From positions 62,001-126,000 of the forward strand of contig NZ_FOAP01000018.1 of assembly GCF_900109545.1 (NCBI RefSeq): 64,000 nt of DNA, in the 5' to 3' direction. Shown one piece after another: positions 49,312 to 64,000 of the stretch. The notes below the pieces were generated by a model that did no database searches, was not told the DNA's origin, and worked only from the letters and a program-made list of their open reading frames with translations. Position 1 is the stretch's first letter, and each line of letters begins with the position of its first letter. Source of the stretch: Stigmatella aurantiaca. Lineage in GTDB: Bacteria; Myxococcota; Myxococcia; Myxococcales; Myxococcaceae. A program made the translations under genes and the position numbers.

Positions 49312-50454
49312 CCCATCAATAGGCTGCACCGGCGGGGGCAGCTCCGTCTCCCCCAGGGCCTGGCGCAGGTTGATCTCGATGGTGCGCGTGAGCGCCGTCA
49401 TCGGCGTGTCGCTGACGCTGTTCTCGAACGGGGTCTCGATGTCGTGCCCCACCGCGTCCATCGCGATGAACATGAACGCGAGGATGGCGGTGACGGGAGG
49501 GGTGAGCCACCCCAGGTCGCTCACCACCCCCAGCGGCATCAGTGCCAGGTAGGCCCGCACCATGGCCCGAGGCAGGATGTCGTACTGGCGGGGCAAGGGG
49601 GTGTTCTTGATGCGCTCGCACGCGCCGAGGATGTTCGTCAGCTCATTGAGGGTGTTGTTCAGCGCCACCAGCAGGAACACCCGCTCCTCGCCGTGGAGCT
49701 GGCCAAAGAGCAGCCTCAGGCGCGTTCCAATCCAGAGCAGGATCGCCGCGGGCACGTTGTGCTCTTCGCGCAGGGCCTCGAGCACCGAGGACCGGAAGAA
49801 CGGGGCGATCTCCGGAAACGGATCCTGGCGCCGCAGGTGGCAGCGCAGCGCGTTCACGAAGCCGATCTGCGCATACACCAGCTCCCGCGCCTCATCGGTG
49901 ATGCCCTCGAACAGGCCGGTGATGACGCCACGGGAGGCGCCCTGCACCTCGTGCGACATCTCCAGGGACACGCGCCGCGCCGGCAGCGAGTCCAGGGGAT
50001 AGGCCTCGTACGCCTTGCCGAGCCGGTCCCGGACGGCCCCATCACTCGTCACGGACCAGAAGGAGAGCCGGGAAGTCGAAGAGGGCTCTTTCGCCGTCTG
50101 CATCAGGCGGGGGGTATTTTCAGCCCCCTCCGTTCCGCCTTCGAGCGGCCGGTGCGGGGGGGCGGGCAGGAGCGTGAGCACCTGTCGGGCGAAGGAGCGT
50201 GAGGTATTCACCAGCCCCCCCCACAGCGTCCGGGCTTCCCACCACCGGTCGTAGGCGGAGTTGTTGCGAAAGGCCAGCAGGACCCCCAGCGCGGCGGCGA
50301 GCACGGTCACGGGGAGCGCGGGAACCGCCAGCCAGGTGGCGCCCAACCCCTCATGGGCGGCGGCAATGCCCAGGGCGAGCAGCACATGCAGCGCGACTGG
50401 CCGGCCCGTGTATCGGATCACGATACGCCAGGACAACATCCGTCCAACGATCAT
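49300..50454 (-). CDS. Bestrophin / UPF0187-type anion channel
   Basis: A 384-residue membrane protein of the bestrophin-like family, which form anion-conducting channels. Typical features are the start RMLSWRIVIRYTGRP, the FRNNSAYDRWWEAR.LWG motif near residues 62-80, and the late PLGVVSDLGWLTPPVTAILAFMFIAMDAVGHDIETPFE segment. The ATG at 50454 has AAGGAA upstream and removes an unlikely 42-residue extension. It is divergent from the SDR gene with a palindrome in the 118 bases between. Confidence 0.87.
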   Translation of the reverse strand: MIVGRMLSWRIVIRYTGRPVALHVLLALGIAAAHEGLGATWLAVPALPVTVLAAALGVLLAFRNNSAYDRWWEARTLWGGLVNTSRSFARQVLTLLPAPPHRPLEGGTEGAENTPRLMQTAKEPSSTSRLSFWSVTSDGAVRDRLGKAYEAYPLDSLPARRVSLEMSHEVQGASRGVITGLFEGITDEARELVYAQIGFVNALRCHLRRQDPFPEIAPFFRSSVLEALREEHNVPAAILLWIGTRLRLLFGQLHGEERVFLLVALNNTLNELTNILGACERIKNTPLPRQYDILPRAMVRAYLALMPLGVVSDLGWLTPPVTAILAFMFIAMDAVGHDIETPFENSVSDTPMTALTRTIEINLRQALGETELPPPVQPIDGLLY

Positions 50455-50487
50455 CCAGCGCGTTCCTTCACAGGTGGAGCGAGCGGG

Positions 50488-50500
50488 CCATGTAACATGG
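50488..50500. promoter_or_regulatory. Perfect 13-base palindrome, candidate operator
   Basis: CCATGT-A-ACATGG has 6-base perfect arms and lies in the divergent region between the bestrophin and SDR genes. It is AT-richer than its surroundings, which makes chance less likely. No regulator gene is adjacent. Confidence 0.35.
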
Positions 50501-50572
50501 ACTGCGACCCTCAGGACCCTCTTCCCTTCCGGACGATGTCCGGGACTGAGCAGCCGCTCCAAGGATTCCCCC

Positions 50573-51334
50573 ATGCACACCCTTCACGGATGGACAGCCC
50601 TCGTCACGGGGGCCAGCTCGGGTATCGGCGAAGCCTGCGCCCTCGCCCTGTCACAGGCCGGTGTACGCCTCGTCCTCGTGGGCCGGCGGGAAGACCGGCT
50701 GCGGGCACTGGCCTCGAAGCTCGCGGTGCCCGCCCACCCACTCGTGCTGGATGTGCGCTCGCGCCCGGACGTCGAGGCCGCCCTGGCCGCCTTGCCGGCG
50801 GAGTTCGCCTCCGTGGACATCCTCGTCAACAACGCGGGCCTGGCCCTGGGCACGGACGCCGCGCACCAGGCCTCCCTCGATGACTGGGAGACGATGATCG
50901 ACACCAACTGCAAGGGGCTCGTCTACCTCACGCATGCCCTGCTCCCCGGCATGGTGCGGCGCAACCGCGGCCACATCGTCAACCTGGGCTCGGTGGCCGC
51001 CACCTACCCGTACCCCGGCGGCAACATCTACGGCGCCACCAAGGCCTTCCTGCACCAGTTCTCGCAGAACCTGAAGGCGGACCTCGTGGGCACGCGCGTG
51101 CGGGTCACCGACGTGCAGCCGGGCATGGTCGAAACGGAGTTCTCCCAGGTGCGGTTCCGGGGCGACACCCAGCGCGCCAGCAAGCTCTACGAGGGGATGG
51201 AGCCCCTCACGGCGGCCGACATCGCGGACGTGGTGCAGTGGTGTGTCACCCGGCCGGCCCACGTGAACATCAACGTGGTCGAGGTCATGCCCGCGGACCA
51301 GGGCTTCGGGCCCTTCGCCGTCAAGCGGCGCTGA
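50573..51334 (+). CDS. Short-chain dehydrogenase/reductase (YdfG-like)
   Basis: A 253-residue NADP-type SDR. It has the Rossmann loop TGASSGIG (12-19), an Arg-rich GRRE stretch after strand 2 that favours NADPH, the NNAG motif, the catalytic Ser (NLGSVAA) and YxxxK (YGATK). It resembles 3-hydroxy acid dehydrogenases of the YdfG type. AAGGA precedes the ATG. Its 3' end overlaps the convergent sugar phosphate cyclase gene by 14 bases. It is not in the same operon, though an SDR could act on a cyclitol. Confidence 0.88.
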
Positions 51335-52526
51335 CGGGCACCGCGGGAGGCAGGCCCTCGCGCCCGCGCTGGGCGCGCTCCGCCATGCGGCGGATGGCCC
51401 GCGCCAGCGCCTCGCGGGGGACATCCTCCAACCCGTGCAGGAACATCCCCTCGCCGATGCGGGCGGGAATCACCAGGTTGATGCGGTGCCCCCGGTGCAC
51501 GTTCACCTCCATCAGCGCCTGCCACATCGCATCCACCGAGCAGAGCGAGGCGTCGAACACCGGCAGCCCCACCACCTCCAGCAGCGTGAGGATCCGCTCG
51601 AACTCGGCCTCCGCGAGGATGCCCAGCTCGTTGCTCAAGCAGGCTGACAGCGCCATGTCCATGGCCACCGCCTCGCCGTGGGCATGGGCATAGCCGCTCG
51701 CCGTCTCCAGGCTCATGCTGAAGGTGTGCCCGAAGTCGACCAGGCGCTCCAGGTTCAGCTCGAACAGGTTGGGCTGCAGCTCTTCGATCATCCGGACCAT
51801 GGCGCCCACCACCGCCTCCTGCGGCAGCGCGTGCTCCAGGCGCCGGCTCAGGGGCGGCAGGAAGTGCCGCTCCAGGGCGGTGAAGATCTCCGGATCACAC
51901 ACCAGCCCCATCTTGATGATCTCCGCCAGCCCGCAGCGCAGCTCCCGGGCCGGCAGGGTGGACAGGAACCCCCGGTCATTGAGCGTCGCGTACGCGGGGT
52001 AGTACGTGCCGATGAGGTTCTTCGAACCGGCCAGGTTCACCCCCGTCTTCACGCCCACGGCCACGTCCACCTGGCCCACCAGGGTGGTGGGCACCTTGAT
52101 GTAGCGGATGCCCCGCCGGTAGATGGACGCGGCGAAGCCCACCGTGTCCAGGACGATGCCGCCGCCGATGGCGACCAGCAGCCCGTGACGGTCCAGGCTG
52201 AAGGACTTGGCGGCCTCGCAGAGGCGCAGCACGTTCTCGATCGACTTGTTCGACTCGGAGGTGCTCAGCACCAGGAAGCGGTACTGCTCCGGCGCGAAGT
52301 GGGCGCGGAAGTACTGGCGGATGCGCTCCCCGTGCAGCCGGTCCACGGAGGGGCTGATGCACACCAGCATGCGCGCGTCGCGGCACAGGCCGAGCAGCAC
52401 CGAGCTGCCCGGCTCGAAGAGCCCGTCCTCGTTGTGCACGCCGTAGCCGAAGTCCGCCTGTGCGGCGACCTGCAGCGTGGTGCCCAGAACGCTCGTACCG
52501 CCACCCACCACCTTGATATGCGCCAT
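51321..52526 (-). CDS. Sugar phosphate cyclase, sedoheptulose-7-phosphate cyclase type (valiolone synthase-like)
   Basis: A 401-residue member of the dehydroquinate synthase superfamily. It keeps the NAD loop GGG (121-123) with Asp127, then PTTL, Asp154, Lys160 and Asn164 in VGVKTGVN, Lys169, the zinc/substrate pair Glu202/Lys205 in GLAEIIK, His267 in GHTF and His283 in HGEAV. However, several residues fixed in true dehydroquinate synthase differ: the second His of GHTFGH is Met271, the Asn of LNLGHT is Asp, the Arg of the LR motif is Glu and the upstream substrate Lys is Met. These changes are as expected for enzymes that cyclise sedoheptulose-7-phosphate to a C7 cyclitol (valiolone, epi-valiolone or desmethyl-4-deoxygadusol). 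The subtype is not fixed. A TTG at 52541 is a possible alternative start, overlapping the dioxygenase stop. It is the last gene of a four-gene leftward operon. Confidence 0.82.
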
Positions 52527-52537
52527 GATGTCGTCAC

Positions 52538-53257
52538 TCAACCCGCGTAGTTCACTCGCCCATTTCGATAGATGCCCACGGAGGTCTGCTTCCGATCCAA
52601 CGCACCATTGCGGAAGCGCATGTTGATCGACACGCGGTCCCGGCCCGAGGTGTTGTGGTTCACCTTATGGAACAGGGTGCAATCCGTGATGACCAGATCG
52701 CCCGCCTTCGGGCACAGCTGCTTCTGGCCCGGCAGGTCGCCGTGGGGCTCGCCGGACGGCAGGCGCTTGTTCCCATGGCTGCCTTCCACCACGTGCAGAG
52801 CCCCGGACTCCAGCGAGGTGTCGAACGGGTAGAGCAGGAAGTTGAACATCTGCCCCGCCCCGACGGTCTCCGGGTCGATGTCCTGGTGCCAGGGGATGGC
52901 CTGCCCCTCGCCGGCCTTGTGATACTGCACCAGCGAGGCATGGAAGAGCCCCTCCTCCGGCAGCAGCTCGCGCACGATGTGGCGCAGGCGGGGGTGTTCA
53001 ATCAACGCCGCGAGGGTGGGCACGTGCGCGTGCCGGTCCACGTAGCAGTAGCTCGTGGACTGGTACTTCTTGAAGAAGTGCTCGGAGCCCTCGCGGGGCA
53101 CCATGAGCGCCTTGTTGGAGATGAGCGCCAGCACCTCGGCCTGGAGCGCCTCCAGCTCGGCGCCATGCACGAAGGACGGCAGGTGGATGTAGCCCTGCGC
53201 CTGGAAACGGGACGTGTCGAACAGCCAGCGTGTGTTGTCCACCGATGGGCTCTCCAT
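52538..53257 (-). CDS. Fe(II)/2-oxoglutarate-dependent dioxygenase, PhyH family
   Basis: A 239-residue phytanoyl-CoA-dioxygenase-type oxygenase. Counting from the ATG at 53257 the facial triad is His124-x-Asp126 (WHQDID) and His197 (TLFHKVNHN), and Arg208 is positioned to bind 2-oxoglutarate. An ATG four codons upstream also exists, but GGAG stands correctly spaced before the inner ATG. It should hydroxylate or desaturate a small molecule, and its place between the GH4-type enzyme and the cyclase suggests the cyclitol product or intermediate. The gap to the GH4 gene is about 24 bases from the chosen start. Confidence 0.87.
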
Positions 53258-53281
53258 GGGGCACTCCATGACGTTCGCCGG

Positions 53282-54565
53282 TTACGGCGACGGGGATAGG
53301 GGTTTGATGAGCGGGTCCACCTCGGACAGGGCGGAGAAGTAGGCCCGGACCGCACGGTGGTCCTGAATCATCGGGTTCATCAGGCAGGCGCGCAGCACCC
53401 GCTGGGGCGAGCGCTCCAGGATGGCCTCCAGCAGCTCCACCTCGGCCTGCTTCATCTGCTTGACGAGCGTGAACTCGGGAAGGCGGGCCACGTGCTCCGG
53501 CGGCGCGAGCGCCACATGGCCCCCGGCCCCCATGCGGGCGTTGGTCTCGACGACACACGTGCGGCAGCCCAGACCAAAAGGGTCCGGGACTCCCAGGTTG
53601 AGGATCAACGGGTCGCGGGCGAGCTGAAGCAGGTTCGAGAGCACGGGGGTGACGATGAGATCGTACCAATCGCACCGCCGCGCGGCCAGCCGTTCCAGGA
53701 AGGGCTCCGGAGCCAGCGCCTCCAGGGGTGTCTGTCTCACCTTGTCGGCCAGTTCCTGCTCGAGCGCATACAGGAACGAGGCCCGGTTGGGCTTCTGCCG
53801 CTGCCCTTCCCAGACCGCGTTCCGGTTGAAGATCAAGTCCCAGGCGGGGATGACGATCGACTCGAAGGCCCGGTGGTACGCGGGCGCCAGGGCGCACGCA
53901 TCCAGGCGCTCCTTGAGTTCTGAGAAGATGCTCTGTCCCGACAGCCGCACATCGTGGACGAAGCCGAAGTGATTGACGCCAAAGTACTGGAGGTCGACCG
54001 CCGCCCGCGGCTGCTGGAGCAGCTCGGCATACGCGGAGCGCAGGACCTCAGGGTAGTCGCAGATTCCCACCACGGGCAGCCCGAACCGCTCCAGCATGTA
54101 CTGGGTGACGATGCTGCACGGGTTGGTGAAGTTCACCAGGGTGTAGGGCCCGGTCTTGCCCCGGAGCGTCTCCAGGAAGGGCGTCAGCCCCACGAGGGTC
54201 CGGATGGCATTGCTGACCCCCACCATGCCCAGGGTCTCGTCGGCCACCAGCCCCTGGGCCAGGGCGATCTTCTCATCCAGGTCGCGGGCGGCCATGCCGC
54301 CGAAGCGGAGCTGGTTGAAGACGAGGCCATACTCCCCGTCCAGGCAGGTCTCGAAGTCCGTGGTGAAGTCCGTCCGGAGCCCCGAGGCGCGCGTCAGCTG
54401 CCCACACATCCGCGCCACGGCCTCGAGCCGCTGCCGGTCCCGCCCGAACAGGGTGATGCGGCGCAGGTGGGACGTGACTCCCGCACGGTGCAGCGACTCC
54501 ACCAGCAGCAGCGTGTAGAAGCTGCTGCCGCCCAGGATGAACAGGCTGGTCTGTGCGCCGCTCAC
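53282..54565 (-). CDS. GH4-family NAD-dependent glycosidase-like enzyme
   Basis: A 427-residue protein of glycoside hydrolase family 4 (6-phospho-glucosidase/alpha-galactosidase type), which uses NAD+ and a divalent metal in a redox mechanism. Seen are the Rossmann loop LGGSS (11-15), LRFGGMAARDLDE (86-98), ETLG, NFTNP (145-149), GICDYPE with metal ligand Cys169, and GVNHFGF with metal ligand His199. The start is a GTG 19 bases after the kinase-like gene. In this cluster it might hydrolyse a phospho-glycoside, oxidise/epimerise a cyclitol phosphate, or remove a protective sugar; none is proven. Confidence 0.85.
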   Translation of the reverse strand: MSGAQTSLFILGGSSFYTLLLVESLHRAGVTSHLRRITLFGRDRQRLEAVARMCGQLTRASGLRTDFTTDFETCLDGEYGLVFNQLRFGGMAARDLDEKIALAQGLVADETLGMVGVSNAIRTLVGLTPFLETLRGKTGPYTLVNFTNPCSIVTQYMLERFGLPVVGICDYPEVLRSAYAELLQQPRAAVDLQYFGVNHFGFVHDVRLSGQSIFSELKERLDACALAPAYHRAFESIVIPAWDLIFNRNAVWEGQRQKPNRASFLYALEQELADKVRQTPLEALAPEPFLERLAARRCDWYDLIVTPVLSNLLQLARDPLILNLGVPDPFGLGCRTCVVETNARMGAGGHVALAPPEHVARLPEFTLVKQMKQAEVELLEAILERSPQRVLRACLMNPMIQDHRAVRAYFSALSEVDPLIKPLSPSP

Positions 54566-54584
54566 GGGAGTGCTCGCAGGGGCC

Positions 54585-55688
54585 TCAGCTCGTGGGGAGC
54601 TGATACTCCACGGCCTTGGCCCTCAGCTCCTGATATTTGAGGATGAGCTCATCCTGCGTCTTCGTCTCATCGCCGAAGAACAGGCCGTTCTCCTCGCGCA
54701 GCAGCGTGAAGTGCTCGCGCAGGGTGCTCACCGCGAACTCGGCCTTCTTGAGCGTGATGGGCGTGCAGGACTTGCCATGCAAGTCATCGAAGAGGTCCAG
54801 CACGTTGGAGCGGAAGGACTCGATCAAGTACAGCTTGTGAAGACTGTCATTGCTGCGCAGGGCCTGCCGCCAGCGCTGGTTGATGGCCGCCTGCCATTGC
54901 AAGACGGGCTCGACGGCCTTCATGGCCTCCAGCCGCTGAAGCTTGTTCTCGTAGTGCTTCAGCGCGTATGTCTTTTCCTCGCGGTAGACGCCAAAGAGCC
55001 CCTGCGCATCCAGGCCGTGGGGGTTTCGCAGGAGGTGGTCGAAGAAGTTGCGCGTCTCGAACCGCTCGACGCCATGGAACAACGGGGTCGCGAAGCCGTT
55101 GTTGTTGTAATGCTGGCGCGGGTCGAAGCGGTACATGTACCCGAAGTCGAACAGGAAGATCTTCTGGCCGTCGTCCAGGACATTGCCCGGGCAGAAGTCC
55201 CACTCGAACAGGCCGTGCAGCTCCAGGTTCACGATGGTGCCGAAGAGCTGGTCATACACCCGGCCGTCGAAGCGCTGGAGCCGCTCGCCTTCGATCCAGG
55301 GCGAGAGGATGACCCCATCGAGGAAGGAGGCGTACTGGGTCTCGACGATGTGGGTGAACAGCGGGGCCGTCTCCGGCTGACGCTGGAGCGCGGTGATGTC
55401 GCGGCGGCGCTGGACCTCGTTGAGAAACGATGTCTGGCCATCCACATTCTTCACCAGACTCTCGGCCCGCTTGCGCTTGAGCGTCCAGTGGCGGCCCCCG
55501 GCCTGAATCCGGTAGACATAGGCCGTCAACCCAGACTCGATTGCCTTGACCACATACTCGCTCTGGGGCGTGGTGTGGGCCAATTGCTCCACGGGCAGCG
55601 GCAGGGCGGACTTCTCGCCCACCTCGATTTGCTGGCCGCTTGCCTGGAACGCAAGCTGGGACTGTTGCCTCTCCTTTTCCAGACTCAT
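54585..55688 (-). CDS. Kinase-fold phosphotransferase of unknown substrate
   Basis: A 367-residue protein with protein-kinase-like fold motifs: Lys71 in WTLKRKR, a helix-C Glu at 91, HGLFEWDFCPGN with catalytic Asp164 and Asn169, and DFG at 181-183. The arrangement is like that of lipopolysaccharide- or small-molecule-type kinases rather than Hanks Ser/Thr kinases, and it has no regulatory domain. The C-terminal half (200-367) is helical and charged. It is the first gene of the leftward operon (AAGG upstream of the ATG), beginning 125 bases from the divergent exporter genes. A cyclitol or sugar phosphotransferase, or a self-resistance kinase, are the plausible roles. Confidence 0.7.
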   Translation of the reverse strand: MSLEKERQQSQLAFQASGQQIEVGEKSALPLPVEQLAHTTPQSEYVVKAIESGLTAYVYRIQAGGRHWTLKRKRAESLVKNVDGQTSFLNEVQRRRDITALQRQPETAPLFTHIVETQYASFLDGVILSPWIEGERLQRFDGRVYDQLFGTIVNLELHGLFEWDFCPGNVLDDGQKIFLFDFGYMYRFDPRQHYNNNGFATPLFHGVERFETRNFFDHLLRNPHGLDAQGLFGVYREEKTYALKHYENKLQRLEAMKAVEPVLQWQAAINQRWRQALRSNDSLHKLYLIESFRSNVLDLFDDLHGKSCTPITLKKAEFAVSTLREHFTLLREENGLFFGDETKTQDELILKYQELRAKAVEYQLPTS

Positions 55689-55749
55689 GGGGGCCTTCTA
55701 CCGTAGATTTCCCAGCATCGCCAGCCCTGCCCGAGCCCCGGGACTTCCG

Positions 55750-55778
55750 TTGACACGGCATTTTGATCCACCTAAAAT
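55750..55778 (+). promoter_or_regulatory. Sigma-70-type promoter of the rightward export/biosynthesis operon
   Basis: TTGACA at 55750-55755 and TAAAAT at 55773-55778 are separated by 17 bases, a near-perfect housekeeping promoter. Expected transcription starts about 28 bases before the GTG of the first ABC gene at 55814, which is preceded by AAGGA. ATTTT and AAAAT arms within the promoter (55760-55778) could be part of an operator. The divergent leftward operon starts 61 bases away on the other side, so one region may control both. Confidence 0.7.
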
Positions 55779-55813
55779 CCATTGAATTGGTGCCGTGCCG
55801 TAAGGATTAACCT

Positions 55814-57664
55814 GTGTCATTGCTGTCCATCCTTGAGCGTCATCGCCTGCTGGACAGCGAAGCCCTCGCCCACATCCGCCGGTTGCAGCGTGACAAGGGC
55901 TACCTGGTCGAAGAAGCCCTGAAGGAGCTGGGGCCCGCGCACGCGGGGGCCGCCGAGAGCGCCGCGGCCCTGCTGGAGCGGGAGCGGCGCCGGGCGCTGA
56001 ACGTGAAGGGGCTGCGCCGCGTCTTCTCCGAGCTGAGCCGGCACCGGGGCGCCGCGGCCCTGCTGTTCGTGTTGAGCGCGGGCAGCGCGGTCTTCAGCTT
56101 TCCCTTCGCGTTCGCCTGGTATCTGGGCACCGTGTTGCAACACCTGCGATACAGCCATGATACCTCGTCGCTGTGGGTGTTGACGGCGGTGGCCGCCACC
56201 GTGCTGGTGACGGGAACGTTGCTTGAATTCCTGCTCAACACGTGGGCCGCGCAATGCAATTTTCACATCACCCAGGGGCTGGTGATGCGCTGCTGGGAGC
56301 GTCTGCTCCACATGCCCTATGTGCTCTACCGGCGCCAGGAGCAGGGGCGGCTGCTGAGCCACCTCACGGATGTCCTGGAGGTCTTGCAGAAACACCAACT
56401 CTACACGTTGCGGAACCTGCTGCGCTCACTGTGTCTCATCGTGGCCTCCACCGTGGCGCTGCTCTCGTTTCACGTCGCGTTTGTCCTCATCGTCGTCCCG
56501 GCGGTGGTGCTGACGTGCGGGGTTCCCATCCTCCTCTCGGACCGGGCCACCCCCTCGCTGCGGCAAGAGCCGAAGCTCATGGGGCGGCTCAGCGGCTTTC
56601 TCAAGGCCGCGTTCGCCTCGCACTGGCTGCTGCGCTTCCAGGGGGCGGAGGCGGTGGAGCGCAGGCTCGCCCACATCGCCGCCGGGCACTTCAACAACCA
56701 GGCCCGGAAATGGCTGACCTGGAATCTGGCGTACAACAGCCGGGTCACCCTGACCCTGCTCAGCTTCCTGTCGGTGCTGTGGATTGGCGGCTCGCTGTAT
56801 CTGGCGGGCACCCTCAGCCTGGGGGACCTGGTCACCGCCTACGTGCTCGTCACCATGGTCACCCCGAAGCTGGACGACGTGTACCGCATCTACGTGTACG
56901 GCCAGTCCATGCAGGCCAACTACGACATCCTCGACGAGCTGATGAGCGCGCCAGTCCAGGAGGCCCCGGGCCCGCGCGAGGGGGAAGCCCCGCGCATCAC
57001 CTCCTTGCGGCTGGAAGGGGCGAGCTTCCGCTACCGTCCCGGTGAGCCCGAGGTGCTCCGGGACGTCTCCCTGGAGCTGCGCCGGGGGCAGCACTGCGCC
57101 ATCCAGGGCGAGAGTGGCGCGGGCAAGAGCACGCTCGTGGATGTGCTCCTGGGCTTGCTCCACCCCGACACGGGCCGCCTGCTCGTGAATGGCCAGCCCC
57201 TCTCCCCCGCGGAGCTGCCGGGCTTCTGGCGCCGGGTGGCCCTGCACGACCAGGCCAACTTCGTCTTCCTGGACCGCAGCGCCGCCGCCAACGCCACCCC
57301 CGCCCGGGGCGACACCGGCCCCGGCGAGGAGTGGCGGCGGCTGGCGGACCGGCTGGGCCTGCCCCTCTGGGGCCACAAGCGCCCTTCCGAGCTGTCGGGG
57401 GGAGAGCGGCAGCGGATCTGCCTGCTCAGGACCCTGGCCACCCCCGCGGACATCTACATCTTCGACGAGCCCACCTCCGCCCTGGACGAGGCCAATGCGC
57501 GGCTGGTGCTGGACAGCATCCTCGCCCTGCGGGATGCCATCGTCCTCGTCATCAGCCACGCCCCGGAGGTCCTCCAGCGCTTCGAGCAGGTCCTGCGCGT
57601 CGAGCAGGGCCGCGTCACATCGAGCACGGCCGCCCCGGGGCATGAGCGGGAGCCGGCGGCGTGA
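55814..57664 (+). CDS. ABC exporter subunit (permease-ATPase) with N-terminal extension
   Basis: A 616-residue half-exporter. Residues 1-60 are a charged helical extension (LLDSEALAHIRRLQRDKGYLVEEALKELG) that resembles the small N-terminal domain of GspE-type ATPases and is not usual in ABC exporters. About six membrane helices occupy 80-350. The ATPase domain has Walker A GESGAGKST (432-440), a Q-loop-like HDQAN, the signature ELSGGERQR (526-534), Walker B IYIFDEP and H-loop His582. The D-loop SALD is intact. GTG start with AAGGA. It overlaps the next ABC gene by 4 bases, so the two likely form a heterodimer. Confidence 0.9.
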   Translation: MSLLSILERHRLLDSEALAHIRRLQRDKGYLVEEALKELGPAHAGAAESAAALLERERRRALNVKGLRRVFSELSRHRGAAALLFVLSAGSAVFSFPFAFAWYLGTVLQHLRYSHDTSSLWVLTAVAATVLVTGTLLEFLLNTWAAQCNFHITQGLVMRCWERLLHMPYVLYRRQEQGRLLSHLTDVLEVLQKHQLYTLRNLLRSLCLIVASTVALLSFHVAFVLIVVPAVVLTCGVPILLSDRATPSLRQEPKLMGRLSGFLKAAFASHWLLRFQGAEAVERRLAHIAAGHFNNQARKWLTWNLAYNSRVTLTLLSFLSVLWIGGSLYLAGTLSLGDLVTAYVLVTMVTPKLDDVYRIYVYGQSMQANYDILDELMSAPVQEAPGPREGEAPRITSLRLEGASFRYRPGEPEVLRDVSLELRRGQHCAIQGESGAGKSTLVDVLLGLLHPDTGRLLVNGQPLSPAELPGFWRRVALHDQANFVFLDRSAAANATPARGDTGPGEEWRRLADRLGLPLWGHKRPSELSGGERQRICLLRTLATPADIYIFDEPTSALDEANARLVLDSILALRDAIVLVISHAPEVLQRFEQVLRVEQGRVTSSTAAPGHEREPAA

Positions 57665-59295
57665 AGGCCCTGCTGCGCTACCTGCGCACCGGCTACGGGG
57701 CCTACTGGGCGATCCTGCTGGGGTTGATCGCCTTCGTCTCCCTGTTCTCGTTCGTGATTCCCAGCACCTTCAAGGTGGTGGTCGACTCCTTGCTGCCGTG
57801 GGGCAGCACCCGCCAGTTCCACCTGTTCTGCCTCTTCGTGCTGCTGCTGGTGTTCACCCGCACGGTGCTCAATGCGTTGCAGGACTACCTGTTCCTGCGC
57901 CTGCGGCAGCTCATCGAGAAGGGCCTGCTGAAGCGCTACTTCGAGTCCGTCATCACCCTGCCCATCACGCGCCTGTCCGCGCTGGGGGAGGGCGAGCTGG
58001 TCAACCGCATCTCGTTGATTCTCACCAACTTCCAGATGCTGCTGCCCGAGTTCGTCTACTACTGCGCCTATGCCTTGTGCGTGTCCCTGGCGGTGATGGG
58101 GGTGCTGTACCTGGTGAACCCGGTCTTCCTGCTCATCAGCCTGGGGTTCCTCCTCCTCCACGCCCTCAACTTCGCCCTCCACCACACCGCCAGCCGCCGC
58201 TTCTCGACGGCCTACGTCACCACCAAGGGACAACTGGCGAGCGCGTACGTGGACATCTTCAAGGGGCGCAAGCTCATCACCCTGACGGGGACCGAGCAGA
58301 CGATCCTCCAGTCCCTGGAGCAGGACAACCGGGCCATCCATCAAGCGGCGTTCCGGCGCGACCTGGCCGAGAGCGGCCAGGCCCTGGGGCAGCAGATGCT
58401 CCACGGGGCCACGTACCTGGCGCTGGTGTCCCTGGGCGCGCTGGCCATGTTCGAGGGGCGCCTGACGGCGGGAGACCTGGCCCTGAGCCTGCTGCTGGTG
58501 GGCTTTGCCTACGAGCCGGTCTACCGGCTGAGCCGGCTGTCCAAGGCGCTGGCGGAGGCGGATGCCCAGTTCGCCCGGGTGCTGCCGGTGCTGGCGGAGT
58601 CCTCCCGCCGCGCCCGCGAGACCGTGAGCCCTGGACGCCTGGAGCGGCTGGAGCTGCGGGGCGTGACGTTCGAACGGGCGGGCCGGGAGCTGCTGCGCTC
58701 GGTGGACTTCGAGTTCCTGCCAGGCCATGTCTATGTCATCCAGGGACCGAGCGGCGGCGGGAAGACCACCCTCTTCCACCTGCTCGCGGGGCTCGTGCGG
58801 CCTACCCAGGGACAGGTGCTGTGGAATGGCCGGGACGTGAGCACGCTGTCCCCAGCGGAGCTGTCCCAGTGGATGACGTACTGCCCCCAGCAGAGCCTGC
58901 TGCTGGACGGCACCGTGGAGGAGAACATCACCCTCTTCGGCAGCACGTCCAACCAAGCACGTCTGGTGGAAGCCTTGCACCGGTCTACCGCCAGCCTCTT
59001 CGTGCGTGAGGATCAAGCCGCGTCCTGGAAGGTCGAGAACGAGGGCACGAACTTCTCGGGCGGCCAGAAGCAGCGGCTGCACCTGGCCCGCGCGTGGTAC
59101 CATGCGGCGCCCGTGATGCTGTTCGATGAGCCCACCGCCAGCCTGGACACAGACACCGAGGAACTTTTCTTTCAACGCCTCTCCGAAGCCGCCGCGGACC
59201 GTATCCTCTTGATCATCTCGCATCGCCCTGGGGCGCATCGCCATGCCAGCCAGGTGCTGCGGTTGGCGCAGGGCACCCTGCGGCGCCTGGAGTAG
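57661..59295 (+). CDS. ABC exporter subunit (permease-ATPase)
   Basis: A 544-residue half-exporter beginning at a GTG that overlaps the preceding stop (GTGA). Six membrane segments lie between residues 15 and 285, with an ABC_membrane pattern. The ATPase has Walker A GPSGGGKTT (362-370), Q-loop PQQS, signature NFSGGQKQR (464-472), Walker B VMLFDEP and H-loop His521. It lacks an N-terminal peptidase domain, so it is not a bacteriocin-processing exporter. It likely dimerises with its neighbour to export the cluster product. The Walker and signature motifs of both subunits look complete. Confidence 0.9.
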   Translation: MKALLRYLRTGYGAYWAILLGLIAFVSLFSFVIPSTFKVVVDSLLPWGSTRQFHLFCLFVLLLVFTRTVLNALQDYLFLRLRQLIEKGLLKRYFESVITLPITRLSALGEGELVNRISLILTNFQMLLPEFVYYCAYALCVSLAVMGVLYLVNPVFLLISLGFLLLHALNFALHHTASRRFSTAYVTTKGQLASAYVDIFKGRKLITLTGTEQTILQSLEQDNRAIHQAAFRRDLAESGQALGQQMLHGATYLALVSLGALAMFEGRLTAGDLALSLLLVGFAYEPVYRLSRLSKALAEADAQFARVLPVLAESSRRARETVSPGRLERLELRGVTFERAGRELLRSVDFEFLPGHVYVIQGPSGGGKTTLFHLLAGLVRPTQGQVLWNGRDVSTLSPAELSQWMTYCPQQSLLLDGTVEENITLFGSTSNQARLVEALHRSTASLFVREDQAASWKVENEGTNFSGGQKQRLHLARAWYHAAPVMLFDEPTASLDTDTEELFFQRLSEAAADRILLIISHRPGAHRHASQVLRLAQGTLRRLE

Positions 59296-59298
59296 ACC

Positions 59299-59982
59299 GT
59301 GCTCGAGTTCCTCTACCGCCTGTACGAACGCGACGTGGGCTCCGGGGACTACCGCGGCACCTTGCTGCTGGCCTTCGGAGTGGTGGCCTCCGGCATCGGC
59401 CTGCTCGCCACGCTGGCCACCCGGCCCTTGCACGAGGTCTACACGGCGGACGGGCGCGTCGAGCCGGGCCGGCTGGAACAGTTCCACAGCGAGGCGGACG
59501 GCCTCATCCAGCAGAACCGGCTCGAGCTGGGCAAGGTCTATGCGCCGGGCGAGCCGGTGTTCACGGCCGCCCCGGGGAGCAGCGGTGGCACTCCCCGCGT
59601 CTACGCCGCCCCCTGCCGTTGTGTGGTGCTCCGCTCGGACCTGCTCCACCGCACCACCGGGCCCATCCGGGCCGGGGAGCTGGTGGCGGAGTTCGCCGAC
59701 ACCACGCACTGGAAGGTGCGCTTTCCCCTGGCGGGGCGCTGGCAGGGCGGCATTTCGCCGGGGGCTCAGGTCCACGTGCTCGATGGAGACCGGGCGTCGC
59801 TGGTGGGCTCGGTTGAACGCGTGTATTCCCTTCCTGGAGAGACGTCCCACGGCGAGGCGTCCGCCTCGGTCCCGGGCGGCCCTGGGCTGGCGCCAGGCCA
59901 CCGGGTGACGGTGAAGGTGGACATGCCACCGGTGTCCCTGTGGCGGCTCTTCGTGGAGAGCCTGGGGCGGCCTGCCCGATGA
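59299..59982 (+). CDS. Short HlyD-like membrane fusion protein
   Basis: A 227-residue protein with one N-terminal membrane helix (about 19-43). The extracytoplasmic part has the pattern of a periplasmic adaptor: G.V.PG...Q.HSEADG, then a lipoyl-like half (GEPVFTA..., ...YAAPC.CVVL...) and a barrel-like end (PLAGRWQGGISPGAQVHVLDGDRASLVGSV). The long coiled coil of classical HlyD is missing, and the middle is short for the family. It starts at a GTG three bases after the ABC gene, so it is the third component of the exporter. Confidence 0.72.
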   Translation: MLEFLYRLYERDVGSGDYRGTLLLAFGVVASGIGLLATLATRPLHEVYTADGRVEPGRLEQFHSEADGLIQQNRLELGKVYAPGEPVFTAAPGSSGGTPRVYAAPCRCVVLRSDLLHRTTGPIRAGELVAEFADTTHWKVRFPLAGRWQGGISPGAQVHVLDGDRASLVGSVERVYSLPGETSHGEASASVPGGPGLAPGHRVTVKVDMPPVSLWRLFVESLGRPAR

Positions 59983-60038
59983 AACCCACACATCCCTTTC
60001 CGGGGTGCGAGTCTTTAGCGAGCTGAACGGGAGCGACA

Positions 60039-60404
60039 ATGCGCACGAACATGCTGCAGGAATTGATGAAGCAGGAGCATGGGTGTCATGGAGGCGAGGG
60101 CTTCATCCATGTCTTCCGCGCCTTCACGCGCAAGGACTCTCCCGTCCAGGTGGACTTCATCGACTTCGTCATCATCCCCAGCGGGGCCACCATTGGCCGC
60201 CACCGGCATGGCGACAACCGCGAGTGGTACGTCATCATCAACGGCCACTGCGAGATGCTGTTCGGCAACGAGCGCGTCCAGGTCAAGCCGTGGGACGTGC
60301 TGGTGAATCCGCCCTCGGGCGAGCACGCCCTGTACAACAACTCCGGCCAGGATGTGACGCTGGTGGTGTTCCAGGTGAGCAAGGACGGCGACAGTGAGCA
60401 CTGA
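60039..60404 (+). CDS. Small cupin protein
   Basis: A 121-residue single-domain cupin. Motif 1 is G(A)TIGRHRHGDNREWYVIING with two His and a Glu as metal ligands, and motif 2 (PWDVLVNPPSGEHALYNN) brings the third His. It could be a metal-dependent isomerase/epimerase or a lyase acting on a sugar or cyclitol phosphate. It is preceded by GGGAG and overlaps the aminotransferase gene by 11 bases, so their products may act in sequence. Confidence 0.85.
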   Translation: MRTNMLQELMKQEHGCHGGEGFIHVFRAFTRKDSPVQVDFIDFVIIPSGATIGRHRHGDNREWYVIINGHCEMLFGNERVQVKPWDVLVNPPSGEHALYNNSGQDVTLVVFQVSKDGDSEH

Positions 60405-61686
60405 GGACATCCTCCAGACGGAGCGCCGCTACCTCAACCAGGGCATCTCCGAGGAGGCGGCGCTGGGCGGCGTGGCCTTCACCCACGGCCGGGGCACCCT
60501 GCTGTTCGACGCGGAAGGCAAGCAGTACCTGGACATGTCCGCGGGCATCTTCACCCAGTCCACCGGGCACGGGCACCCGCATGTGACTGGCAGCATGCAC
60601 CGCCAGCTGGACCGGCTGTGGAACGTGCACGACTTTCCCACCGACGCGCGCGCCGCCCTCTGCGAGAAGCTGGCGCAGCACTTCCCCGAGCACCTGCAGA
60701 CCTTCGCCTTCTTCACCACGGGCGCCGAGGCCATCGAGGCCGCCATCCGCGCCGTGTTCGGCGCCGTGCCGCCGCAGCGCCAGCGGCTGGCGGCCCTGCG
60801 CTACGGCTTCCATGGCAAGACCATGGGGGCCCGGATGCTGGTGCACTGGGACGTGGGCACCACGTCCTTCTCCGGCAACTCGGTGCTGGGCTATCCGGGG
60901 TACTGCTACCGCTGCCCTCTGGGGCGCACCTACCCGAGCTGCGAGATGCAGTGCGCCCAGCTCGTGAACAAGCACATCAGCAGCAAGAAGAACATCGCGG
61001 CCCTGTTCTTCGAGCCCATCCAGGGCGCGGCGGGCGTCATCGTTCCCCCGCTGGAGTACTGGCCGATGATTCAGGAGGAGTGCCGCAAGAACGGGGTGCT
61101 GCTCGTCGCGGATGAAATCGTCACGGGCGGGGGAAGGACGGGCGAGTTCCTCGCGTGCTCCCTCTTCAACGTCCAGCCGGACATCGTGGCCGCGGCCAAG
61201 GGGCTCTCCTCGGGCTTTCCCTTCTCCATGCTGGCGGGGCGCAAGAGCCTGCTGAACGAGGGGGAGTTCGCCCAGGGCGGCGCGGCCTCCTCCACCTTCG
61301 GTGGCAACCCCCTGAGCATGACGGCGGCCCGGGCCACCCTGGAGGTGCTGGAGTCCGAGCAGCTCCTGGACCGGGTGAAGCGGCTGGGCGCCCGGCTCCG
61401 GGAGGGGCTGCTGGCGCTCAAGGCGGACTTCCCCTTCGTGGGGGACGCGCGGGGCGTGGGGCTGCTCTATGCCCTGGAGTTCGTGACGACGCCCCAGGGC
61501 AAGGAGCCGGATGCGGCCAAGGCCCGCTTCTTCTTCCGGCGCTGCATGGAGCTGGGGGTGAAGACGTGTGTGGGGGGCCACATCATCCGCATGGGGCCGC
61601 CCTTCACCGTGAGCGAGCAGGAGCTGGAGCAGGCCCTGGACGTGTTCGGCCAGGTGCTCAAGCAGATGCATGACCAGAAGGTCTGA
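60394..61686 (+). CDS. Class III (PLP) aminotransferase
   Basis: A 430-residue fold-type I aminotransferase. The PLP Lys is Lys269 (AAAKGLSSGFPFSML), with Asp240 in LLVADEI, the phosphate-binding TTGAEAIEAAIR and the GFHGKTMGA segment. A CxxC...CxxxC-like group (Cys171, 174, 183, 187) occurs as in the GabT/4-aminobutyrate-type subgroup. It would place an amino group on a keto sugar or cyclitol or on a side-chain. The GTG start is 11 bases inside the cupin gene, with AAGGA upstream. In this context it is the likely nitrogen-inserting enzyme. Confidence 0.9.
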   Translation: MSTEDILQTERRYLNQGISEEAALGGVAFTHGRGTLLFDAEGKQYLDMSAGIFTQSTGHGHPHVTGSMHRQLDRLWNVHDFPTDARAALCEKLAQHFPEHLQTFAFFTTGAEAIEAAIRAVFGAVPPQRQRLAALRYGFHGKTMGARMLVHWDVGTTSFSGNSVLGYPGYCYRCPLGRTYPSCEMQCAQLVNKHISSKKNIAALFFEPIQGAAGVIVPPLEYWPMIQEECRKNGVLLVADEIVTGGGRTGEFLACSLFNVQPDIVAAAKGLSSGFPFSMLAGRKSLLNEGEFAQGGAASSTFGGNPLSMTAARATLEVLESEQLLDRVKRLGARLREGLLALKADFPFVGDARGVGLLYALEFVTTPQGKEPDAAKARFFFRRCMELGVKTCVGGHIIRMGPPFTVSEQELEQALDVFGQVLKQMHDQKV

Positions 61687-61704
61687 GCTTCCCAGGTGAG
61701 CGCC

Positions 61705-63222
61705 ATGACAGGACAGGTCTCCCGTACCCAACTCGAGGCGAACCGCTCCCGGTTGATTCAATCCTTCCAGGGCCAGCGCTGGCTGAGTGAGCCCAGCGGC
61801 CGGGACGCGGGGCTCGACATCGAGGACTTCGTGCAACTGCCCGGAGAGGCCAGCCCCTTCGTGCTCACGCTGCTGCGCTTCCACGGCTCGGGCAACCGCT
61901 ACTTCGTCCCCCTGCGCGTCACCCCCACCGCCGGGCAGGAGGCGCAGCTGAGCGATGCGTCCTATGACGCGGGGTTCATCACCGCGATGCTGCAGTGCAT
62001 GCGCGAGCAGCGGACGCTCACCACCGAGAAGCAGCGCGCCCTGCATTGCCGGACCCGGACGCCCTCGCCGGGGGCGCCCGCCCTGGAGGTCACCCCCTTC
62101 AAGGTGGACATGTCCTCCAACTGCCTCAGCGAGCTTCGCCACGGAGAGGACCGCTGGGTCTGCAAGCTCTACAAGCGCCTGAGCACCGATGGCGGCAATG
62201 AGCTCCGGGCCTTGCAGCTCCTGGCGGGCAGCGGCCTCGCCCCGGAGCTGCTGGGGTCCATCACCTACGAGGACGGCACGGGACTCCAGGCGCTGGGGGC
62301 CATGACGGCGCTGGTCGAGGGCGAGCCCATCTACCTGCCGCTCAGCCGTCACATCAAAGCCCTCATCGCGCAGGTGGTGGCGGCCCCAGAGGAGGCCAGC
62401 ACCTTCACCCGCGGCGGGCTCGCGGAGCTGGAACCGCTGTGCCGCAAGCTCGGCGAGCAGTTGCTGCTCTTTCACCAGCGCCTGAACCAGGGGCTGGGTG
62501 CCGCGACGGACGAGGCGGCCCTCTTCCAGCTCGCCCCCTACCTCGACACCCACCGGGCCCGCTGGGAGCGGCTCCATGCCGCCGTGGCGCAGGATGCGTC
62601 CCTGCCCGCCCCCTTGCGCGCCCAGGCCCTGCGGCAGCTCCAGCGGGTGTCCCACGACATCCTGGCGCCGGGGAAGCTGCGCCACCTGCCCCCGCTGCCC
62701 GCCACCATCGCCCACGGGGACTTGCACCTCTCGCACATCCTCGTCGCCGCTTCGGAGAGCGCTGCGCCCCGGCTCTCCATCCTCGACGTCTCCCCGCGCA
62801 GCCTCGACGCCCAGGCCCCCGCCTTCCTCACCCAGACCGTGTTGCAGGACCTGCTCAGCCTGCTGCGTGCCATCCAGTACTTCGCCTTCGATGAGATTCT
62901 GGATGGCATCAAGGACGTGCTGGGCAATACCCAGCTGGAGGCCACCCGGCTCGTGCTGGAGAATCCCGGCAGCCTGCCGCCCTCCTGCCAGGCCCAGCTC
63001 ACGGTGCTCTCGGATTGGAGCAAGGGGCTCTTCGGCTGCATCGAGCGCGCGTACCTGAGGGCCTTCGAGCGCGGCACCGCGCTGGACATCCACCCCAGCC
63101 ATGCGCGGCTGTTCTACGTCTGCCGGCTCCTCCAGGAGCTGGAATACAACTACAGCTACAACCGCGACTTCTTCAAATACTGCGACTTCTACTACCTGCT
63201 CCACCTGGAAGGGCTCGAATAG
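61705..63222 (+). CDS. Maltokinase-like phosphotransferase
   Basis: A 505-residue kinase with the fold of maltokinase (Pep2/Mak) and trehalose-synthase-fused kinases. Counting from the ATG at 61705 (AGGTGAG upstream; a GTG is three codons earlier), an N-terminal cap (QRW near 25) leads to Lys154 (VCKLYK). The catalytic loop HGDLHLSHIL has Asp339, and the metal-binding Asp361 lies in ILDVSP. It should phosphorylate a sugar or cyclitol hydroxyl, at C1 in the maltokinase case. It follows the aminotransferase by 18 bases and precedes the glycosyltransferase by 12, so it may activate the sugar or cyclitol for transfer. Confidence 0.82.
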   Translation: MTGQVSRTQLEANRSRLIQSFQGQRWLSEPSGRDAGLDIEDFVQLPGEASPFVLTLLRFHGSGNRYFVPLRVTPTAGQEAQLSDASYDAGFITAMLQCMREQRTLTTEKQRALHCRTRTPSPGAPALEVTPFKVDMSSNCLSELRHGEDRWVCKLYKRLSTDGGNELRALQLLAGSGLAPELLGSITYEDGTGLQALGAMTALVEGEPIYLPLSRHIKALIAQVVAAPEEASTFTRGGLAELEPLCRKLGEQLLLFHQRLNQGLGAATDEAALFQLAPYLDTHRARWERLHAAVAQDASLPAPLRAQALRQLQRVSHDILAPGKLRHLPPLPATIAHGDLHLSHILVAASESAAPRLSILDVSPRSLDAQAPAFLTQTVLQDLLSLLRAIQYFAFDEILDGIKDVLGNTQLEATRLVLENPGSLPPSCQAQLTVLSDWSKGLFGCIERAYLRAFERGTALDIHPSHARLFYVCRLLQELEYNYSYNRDFFKYCDFYYLLHLEGLE

Positions 63223-63234
63223 AGCGACGACGTC

Positions 63235-64000
63235 ATGCACATCCTCGAGTGCTATCTGGAATGCGGCGGTTTTGATTACAGCTTCATCAAGGGCGGCATC
63301 TCCGTCTACACCTGGAACCTGGCCAGCGCCTTCCGGGCCGAGGGGCACCAGGTCTCCGTGCTCACCGCCGCGCACGGCCGCCTCGACTACCTCCAGAAGA
63401 ACTACCCCGTGGAGGAGCTGCCCTACCGGCGCCGCTACACGCTGCCCCTCCAGTTGGATCCGCGCGTGTGGCGTGATTTCGAGCCCCGGCAGGAGCTGGA
63501 GCTGGAGACGCGGGCCTACCGGATCCGCCACCAGGGCGTGGACCTGTACTTCCTGTGCAATGACATGCTGGACCGGTACAGCGACACCTTCTATCCGCCC
63601 TACGAGAGCAAGGGGAAGGACCTGGGCTTCTTCAAGCCGCTGGTGTTCCAGATGGACATGGTGCTCTTCATCCGCGAGTTCTTCGCGGACGAGCAGCTGC
63701 TCATCCACGCCCACGAGCCCTTCTACCAGTACCTGCTGCCGCTCGCGTTCCGGGACGATGCCAACAAGCGCATGGTGAGCACCGTGCAGAGCAACATGCC
63801 GGTCAACAAGAAGGTGTACCGGCCCGAGCTACAGGCCCAGCTCGACTTCCTGGGCGTCCACGTCGACCTGGCGCCCTTCAACGACGTGCCGCAGACGGAT
63901 GCCTTCAGCCGCTGCCTGAATGGGTACCTGCCCGAGACCCACCTGCACTACCCCTACCCGGACGATTACATCGCCTTCTATCCGCTGCTGCTCGAGTACA
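63235..64000 (+). CDS. GT5 (glycogen/starch synthase)-like glycosyltransferase, incomplete
   Basis: The first 255 residues of a GT-B glycosyltransferase; the frame is still open at base 64000. Visible are the family start with a KGGISVYTWNLASAFRAEGHQVSVLTA loop (GGxxx donor-side glycine loop), the NDMLDRYSDTFYPPY region and LLIHAHEPFYQYLLPL, and STVQSNMPVNKKVYRPE. These match the GT5/glycogen-synthase-like N-terminal domain. The C-terminal nucleotide-binding half is outside the window. GT5-related proteins act as pseudo-glycosyltransferases in acarbose-type pathways, so this gene could couple a cyclitol to an amino sugar; a true glycosyltransferase is equally possible. Confidence 0.75.
   Translation, partial: MHILECYLECGGFDYSFIKGGISVYTWNLASAFRAEGHQVSVLTAAHGRLDYLQKNYPVEELPYRRRYTLPLQLDPRVWRDFEPRQELELETRAYRIRHQGVDLYFLCNDMLDRYSDTFYPPYESKGKDLGFFKPLVFQMDMVLFIREFFADEQLLIHAHEPFYQYLLPLAFRDDANKRMVSTVQSNMPVNKKVYRPELQAQLDFLGVHVDLAPFNDVPQTDAFSRCLNGYLPETHLHYPYPDDYIAFYPLLLEY

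Follow-up and report, generated by a model that had tools for sequence, protein, structure and literature searches.

A 64,000-nucleotide stretch of the Stigmatella aurantiaca draft genome (9.37 Mb; contig C18, positions 62001-126000; hereafter the window) ends in two divergent operons that raise the question of what a sugar phosphate cyclase (SPC), an exporter and several sugar-modifying enzymes make together in a myxobacterium. A first-pass annotation of the window had proposed a C7-(amino)cyclitol cluster following the logic of acarbose and validamycin biosynthesis. We found a set of 14 genes, from the cyclase to a PfkB kinase, only part of which lies inside the window, and its assignment as a C7-cyclitol or aminocyclitol cluster is well supported by sequence. 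The cluster probably directs the biosynthesis and export of a C7-cyclitol-containing pseudo-(amino)sugar or pseudo-oligosaccharide, acarbose- or validamycin-like with some different enzymes. A GlgC-like nucleotidylyltransferase (NT), a ROK kinase and the PfkB kinase, all encoded past the window end, strengthened the original proposal.

A conserved 14-gene set in Stigmatella

A search for the cyclase across 145 genomes of the order gave matches at E<=1e-55 in 14. Four of the seven genomes of the genus carried it at 90-100% identity; the remaining matches within the order were at 39-43%. The 14 genes were collinear in all three of the other cyclase-bearing genomes of the genus, with 74-100% amino acid identity. 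The check on whether the neighbours might prove unconserved with the cyclase did not refute the cluster, as the set accompanies the cyclase in four of four genomes. Measured against the three orthologue genomes, the dN/dS ratios of the 14 genes were 0-0.37, indicating purifying selection. Gene content, collinearity and purifying selection were observed directly, and because orthologues at this identity were kept under such ratios in three genomes, the cluster is not a chance assemblage. Its flanks differ among the genomes of the genus. The HlyD-like adaptor was the least conserved of the set (74-91% identity to its orthologues), and both the cyclase and the glycosyltransferase (GT) were absent from the other three of the seven genomes.

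The cluster end at 64000 in the first-pass annotation was an artefact of the window. Reading past the window end (stretch L004, where position equals window position minus 49999), we found that the cluster continues for another ~4.25 kb, closing with the PfkB gene, which ends at L004 18252 (window equivalent 68251). Next, on the opposite strand, is malQ, which adjoins the cluster in three of the four cluster genomes and was not found at E<=1e-100 in the other four of the seven genus genomes. An upstream short-chain dehydrogenase/reductase gene (frame 50261-51334) lies at a varying distance from the cluster among genomes and was excluded from it.

Within the window, the gene positions and the shared 125-base control region had been placed correctly, and Pfam confirmed the content reported for the plus-strand operon, i.e. 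an ABC pair with adaptor, cupin, aminotransferase, kinase and GT (Table 1). The TTGACA-17-TAAAAT promoter occurs once within 51000-60500 (0.5 expected in shuffles), with both hexamers unchanged across four aligned species. The frames of the NT, ROK and PfkB genes overlap. No resistance or regulator gene was recognised among the 14 genes by Pfam, and an Rfam scan of the window gave zero matches. The first ABC half carries a 57-residue N-terminal extension without a match in genome G078 (window 55814-55990; L033 11990-12195), where the gene has a GTG start directly behind the same promoter.

Table 1. Coordinates of the cluster genes and adjoining features (window positions unless marked L004).
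Feature	Position	Strand	Remarks
Sugar phosphate cyclase (sedoheptulose-7-phosphate-cyclase-like)	51321..52541	-	406 aa, TTG start; Pfam DHQ_synthase 126 bits
PhyH-type Fe(II)/2-oxoglutarate dioxygenase	52538..53269	-	Pfam PhyH 69.4 bits vs cut-off 22
GH4-like NAD/metal-dependent enzyme	53282..54565	-	Pfam Glyco_hydro_4 70 bits
AarF/UbiB-like kinase-fold protein	54585..55688	-	kinase-like motifs by eye; no Pfam match above cut-off
Divergent control region, 125 bases exactly	55689..55813		gap between the two operons
Sigma-70-like promoter TTGACA-17-TAAAAT	55750..55778	+	towards exporter operon
ABC exporter half 1	55814..57664	+	ABC_membrane + ABC_tran
ABC exporter half 2	57661..59295	+	Pfam
HlyD-like adaptor	59299..59982	+	Pfam HlyD_3 37.9 bits
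Small cupin	60039..60404	+	Pfam Cupin_2 40.1 bits
Class III aminotransferase	60394..61686	+	Pfam Aminotran_3 287.8 bits
APH/maltokinase-like kinase	61696..63222	+	Pfam APH 32.6 bits vs cut-off 23.2; weak maltokinase model match, 25 bits
GT4/GT5-like (GT-B) transferase, 657 aa	63235..64000 (first 766 bases); whole gene L004 13236-15209	+	
GlgC-like nucleotidylyltransferase	L004 15190-16284		past window end
ROK kinase	L004 16253-17314		past window end
PfkB kinase	L004 17311-18252		past window end
malQ	L004 18225-19850	-	past window end

Cyclase, nucleotidylyltransferase and a core shared with Streptomyces

The cyclase had been read as carrying the substitutions of sedoheptulose 7-phosphate (SH7P) cyclases. 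It scored 226.9 bits against the aroB equivalog TIGR01357, below the cut-off of 305, and its best match in the PDB was ValA, a 2-epi-5-epi-valiolone synthase (EEVS), with 254 bits, compared to 202 for desmethyl-4-deoxygadusol synthase (DDGS) and 162 for the best 3-dehydroquinate synthase (DHQS). In a 46-row tree the window cyclase and its orthologues paired with the cyclase of a Streptomyces sp. NBC_00467 plasmid (99/96) and fell outside a 14-row group of ValA, DDGS and others (100/99), with three cyclases from another family of the order forming a further branch. A 32-row tree without NBC_00467 and other rows again placed the window cyclase outside the ValA/DDGS group (100/98). Approximately unbiased (AU) tests, with groups named after the tree was seen, rejected both its joining DHQS (p-AU 0.0012) and its nesting inside the EEVS+DDGS group (p-AU 0.010). 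Two points speak against the tree: the pairing with NBC_00467 unites long branches and drew a program warning that it could be spurious, and the sister relation of the window cyclase to the EEVS/DDGS group is weak (81/59).

Judged by these comparisons, the subfamily kinship is plain and the cyclase is on the SH7P-cyclase side, apart from 3-dehydroquinate synthases, so that this part of the earlier reading stood. By sequence the protein is not a plain EEVS: it lies outside the EEVS+DDGS group and has Met where solved EEVS and DDGS have Pro. Identity as a dehydroquinate synthase, the outcome against which the first-pass annotation had set its first check, was rejected on the aroB score, the ValA match and the AU test. 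A protein scan of the genome-contig collection with the cyclase returned 11 distant cyclases (26-35%).

Among the active-site columns inspected, the Asp (LVDFGH) and His (VHR) of ValA are kept, the two columns that tell EEVS from DDGS. In the NBC_00467 cyclase Asp and Pro are retained, but Lys is replaced by Glu and His by Arg; since these columns differ between the two proteins, the active site varies even within this pair. Fourteen active-site fingerprint residues, as in ValA, mark EEVS (PMC4426668).

We also considered the label 2-epi-valiolone synthase (EVS) and set it aside, without settling it, because it is the other cyclase found in the genus that resembles DHQS, and the EVS clade would pass for DHQS by sequence (PMC5133447). 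The main reserve on our verdict is that an orthologue of the window cyclase may already have been assayed. Work by Asamizu in 2012 reportedly described an EVS from S. aurantiaca DW4/3-1 and assayed a Stigmatella cyclase, which agrees with the remark in the first-pass annotation that cyclases of this type are said to come from myxobacteria.

The NT scored 207 bits against the glgC equivalog, about half the cut-off of 425, and so is GlgC-like yet outside GlgC. Its kinship within the seven genus genomes was directly observed as a two-step pattern, with 50-51% identity to the NT beside the second cyclase (four genomes) and 31-35% to a further pair of proteins that every one of the seven encodes. 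Among plasmid proteins the NBC_00467 NT was best at 48%, and the next 11 of the best 12 of 615 records were at 29-32%. No other single finding argues as strongly that the cluster would make a nucleoside diphosphate (NDP)-cyclitol. In sequence terms the kinship is of the cyclitol nucleotidyltransferase (VldB/AcbR) type, GlgC-like outside GlgC, a type defined by its use of valienol 1-phosphate and GTP. AcbR and VldB are described as GlgC-like enzymes making NDP-cyclitol (PMC9200736).

The GT is of general GT-B type and far from any solved enzyme. At E<=1e-15 it occurred in four of the 195 phylum genomes sampled, and only two of 72,556 plasmid records contained a match, both from Streptomyces. 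One of these, the NBC_00467 plasmid (NZ_CP107895.1, ~137-156 kb), has the gene order cyclase-cupin-aminotransferase-ABC(3)-APH-GT-NT-ROK. Comparing 20 of the 36 annotated features of this stretch at E<=1e-4, we measured identities to the Stigmatella proteins of 44% (cyclase), 39% (cupin), 53% (aminotransferase), 26% over nearly full length (APH-type kinase), 45% (GT), 48% (NT) and 42% (ROK), with a PfkB-type kinase further on at 33%. The GT strip SKFEMDTFLIAQGEAM is identical in the window and NBC_00467 proteins, and two residues differ in that of Streptomyces sp. NBC_00868. The arrangements are not the same: in NBC_00467 the cyclase heads the same gene run and three ABC-transporter genes lie between aminotransferase and APH, whereas in the window the cyclase is in a separate divergent operon and the ABC genes precede the cupin. 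NBC_00467 also has ABC-2 transporter, RmlD, NUDIX, HAD, GMC oxidoreductase, AKR and radical SAM genes, with malQ, HAD and dTDP-sugar genes nearby. On the NBC_00868 plasmid (L055 17561-31338) the GT relative (40%) occurs with malQ, HAD and three glycogen-synthase-like genes, and none of the 36 annotated features shown carries the name of a cyclase.

Candidate pathway and rival explanations

An SPC with an acbR-type NT, a GT5-like transferase and mostly an aminotransferase is the mark of pseudo-oligosaccharide clusters according to PMC9200736. All four occur together here, with the likeness of the GT to AcbS/AcbI being by description only. In the same source, the acarbose cluster of Actinoplanes sp. 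SE50/110 shares with the present one an SH7P cyclase, a ROK cyclitol kinase, a separate C1 kinase role, a GlgC-like cyclitol nucleotidyltransferase, a GT5-like transferase, an aminotransferase and an adenosine-kinase/PfkB-type kinase. A 4-alpha-glucanotransferase is common to both, here as the malQ beside the cluster. The two differ in that the window cyclase branches outside the EEVS/DDGS group, in the single GT that stands in for AcbI and AcbS, and in the presence here of GH4-like, PhyH, cupin, AarF-like and HlyD-like proteins, the Acb proteins having been compared by description. The validamycin cluster (VldE/ValL) likewise has an aminotransferase, and its transferase is a GT20, in contrast to the GT5-like one here. 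It shares with the present set the cyclase, the GlgC-like NT (VldB/ValB) and the ROK-type cyclitol kinase (ValC), according to PMC9200736.

In the route that we propose, the cyclase would close sedoheptulose 7-phosphate to a valiolone-type ketocyclitol. The cupin might then epimerise beside the ketone, and the GH4-like NAD/metal enzyme might carry out an AcbL/AcbN-type redox/elimination or reduction. The ROK kinase would phosphorylate the primary 7-hydroxyl and the APH/maltokinase-like kinase the 1-hydroxyl, after which the NT would form the NDP-cyclitol. The class III aminotransferase would aminate the acceptor or a ketocyclitol, the GT-B transferase would couple NDP-cyclitol and acceptor, and the PhyH protein could hydroxylate a late intermediate. 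Finally, the PfkB kinase (compare AcbK) would keep the product inactive inside the cell and the ABC-ABC-HlyD exporter would move it out. Acarbose is exported by an ABC system. The cupin/GH4 and PhyH steps are guesses, because nothing in the set stands out as an equivalent of AcbO, AcbL or AcbN.

The ROK kinase has 28.6-42% identity to the six cyclase-linked ROKs compared and 25% to one unlinked. Maltokinases phosphorylate C1. Together the ROK, APH/maltokinase-like and PfkB kinases could offer the same three roles as the ROK-like 7-kinase AcbM, the 1-kinase AcbU and the adenosine-kinase-like acarbose kinase AcbK described in PMC9200736. A fourth kinase-like gene, that of the AarF/UbiB-like protein, has no counterpart there. 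Relatives of this protein were found in Klebsiella (46%) and in four genomes of a sister genus (70-75%); in the three of these four that were inspected, no cyclase was among the called neighbours. AlphaFold2 single-sequence models of the AarF/UbiB-like protein and of the cupin were unusable (mean pLDDT, the predicted local distance difference test, 37.5 and 39.4, respectively).

The cupin keeps the metal motif HxH..E...PxG..H...N. Small cupins with 33-39% identity to it also follow the cyclase in NBC_00467 and in three genomes that belong to another family within the order, and this recurrence suggests that the cupin acts close to the cyclase product; epimerisation is our guess for the reaction.

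The GH4-like enzyme and the PhyH dioxygenase had been singled out as foreign to the known sets. The GH4-like protein is unusual, with a divergent middle region; it was found in 18 of 195 genomes of the phylum at E<=1e-18, within the window's own family only in the four cluster genomes, yet two genomes belonging to another family in the order have a relative separated from a cyclase by one gene position. The NAD motif, metal Cys and His and active-site Tyr are present, and Cys, His and Tyr are in place in ten of ten aligned rows (four annotated 6-phospho-beta-glucosidases, three orthologues, two relatives near cyclases and the window protein); the GH4 redox-elimination chemistry may therefore be intact. 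The protein could act as a cyclitol dehydratase/oxidoreductase or, alternatively, as a true glycosidase on an intermediate. In the PhyH protein an HxD (WHQD) and a distal H..R are visible, presumably the family motifs. One validamycin cluster encodes VldW, a 2-oxoglutarate dioxygenase leading to validamycin B; on this basis PhyH may not be foreign to such pathways.

Several observations weigh against the acarbose-like interpretation. At two active-site columns the cyclase departs from solved EEVS, with Met in place of Pro and Val in place of Lys. The GT shows a weak relationship to glycogen synthases (47.7 bits against the 328-bit glgA cut-off), and an ordinary glycosidic bond is as possible for it as the non-glycosidic C-N bond that defines pseudoglycosyltransferases, AcbS and AcbI having been compared by description only. 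Against a plain acarbose pathway, Pfam recognised among the 14 genes no HAD phosphatase (the AcbJ role), no dTDP-sugar genes and a single GT, and showed no apparent counterparts of AcbO, AcbL and AcbN by the families assigned to these. Because the AarF/UbiB-like kinase, GH4, PhyH, HlyD and second ABC half were unmatched among the NBC_00467 features compared, about a third of the set lies outside the shared core.

A bolder joint reading would make the cyclase a further SH7P cyclase subfamily common to Stigmatella and Streptomyces, the GH4-like protein an NAD-dependent cyclitol dehydratase/oxidoreductase and the GT a new pseudoglycosyltransferase family with its own C-terminal domain, together yielding a new class of pseudo-oligosaccharide exported as a glycosidase inhibitor; taken whole, we hold this to be possible and rather doubtful. 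The glycosidase inhibitors with clinical and crop uses, acarbose and validamycin, come from actinomycetes, and a conserved intact cluster in Stigmatella, with a second validamycin-like one, would give a new source of pseudosugars. It would also be a test case for how stereochemistry is determined in SH7P cyclases that fall outside the EEVS/DDGS group, and for which glycosyltransferase families became pseudoglycosyltransferases.

The best surviving rival, which we judge unlikely, is a simple C7-cyclitol glycoside or free (amino)cyclitol, with the GT making an ordinary glycosidic bond as in streptol glucoside. The single, general GT-B transferase far from solved enzymes would suit it, and C7-cyclitol glucosides are known natural products (PMC8599487). 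The joint conservation across phyla of the cyclase-linked kind of NT and the aminotransferase argues instead that the cyclitol itself is activated as donor. Much less probable is a role in adding a cyclitol or a heptose-derived unit to a polysaccharide that is exported or displayed on the cell surface: the many sugar-metabolism families, the ABC-ABC-HlyD exporter and the lack of a recognised resistance or regulator gene are compatible with this, whereas Pfam recognised no polymerase, flippase or lipid-carrier transferase among the 14, the exporter is of half-ABC type with adaptor, and the Streptomyces plasmid core has a different (ABC-2) transporter. We give almost no credence to a shikimate-type housekeeping operon with a DHQS paralogue, a reading prompted by the NCBI families' name for the cyclase (3-dehydroquinate synthase-like, below cut-off), as another AroB-like gene occurs in seven of seven genus genomes (here among aromatic-pathway-like genes by eye), the DHQS placement was rejected and the cyclase and GT are dispensed with in three genomes.

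The pseudo-(amino)sugar or pseudo-oligosaccharide cluster remains our preferred interpretation. Among the papers listed by our literature searches, none was seen to describe the 14-gene cluster. PMC6616573 counts three saccharide clusters of myxobacteria that resemble no known cluster, and the present one could be among these or not.

Further cyclase loci and minor observations

The same genome contains a second, validamycin-like cluster (L074 6191-16500; G000 contig C1, ~1.046-1.057 Mb). Its DHQS-like cyclase (L074 14003-15184) scored 287 bits to aroB (cut-off 305) and fits the EVS description in PMC5133447 better than the window cyclase does. The cluster also encodes a class III aminotransferase, RmlD-like, TIM-barrel and BadF-type proteins, a GlgC-like NT and a GT20 protein, and two further genes appear by eye to be alcohol dehydrogenase-like and MFS transporter-like. 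The GT20 protein scored 531 bits to VldE and 182 to the best trehalose-phosphate synthase. At E<=1e-90 it was found in five of the 195 phylum genomes, and the same four cluster genomes are among these.

Three genomes from another family in the order (L044, L045, L047) have a cyclase-cupin run followed by a small gene, NUDIX-like by eye, with a GH4-like gene one gene upstream in two of them and a ROK kinase in L045; these loci are a candidate for another uncharacterised C7-cyclitol-type cluster. Loci from two sister genera (L039-L043, L046, L049) carry yet another cyclase, which the tree places near EEVS/DDGS, and in the two inspected (L039 and L042) the cyclase is followed by a cupin-like pair. 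Elsewhere in the window, tandem repeats of 102 and 93 bases were observed at 29899-30951, inside long open frames that are cysteine-rich by eye.

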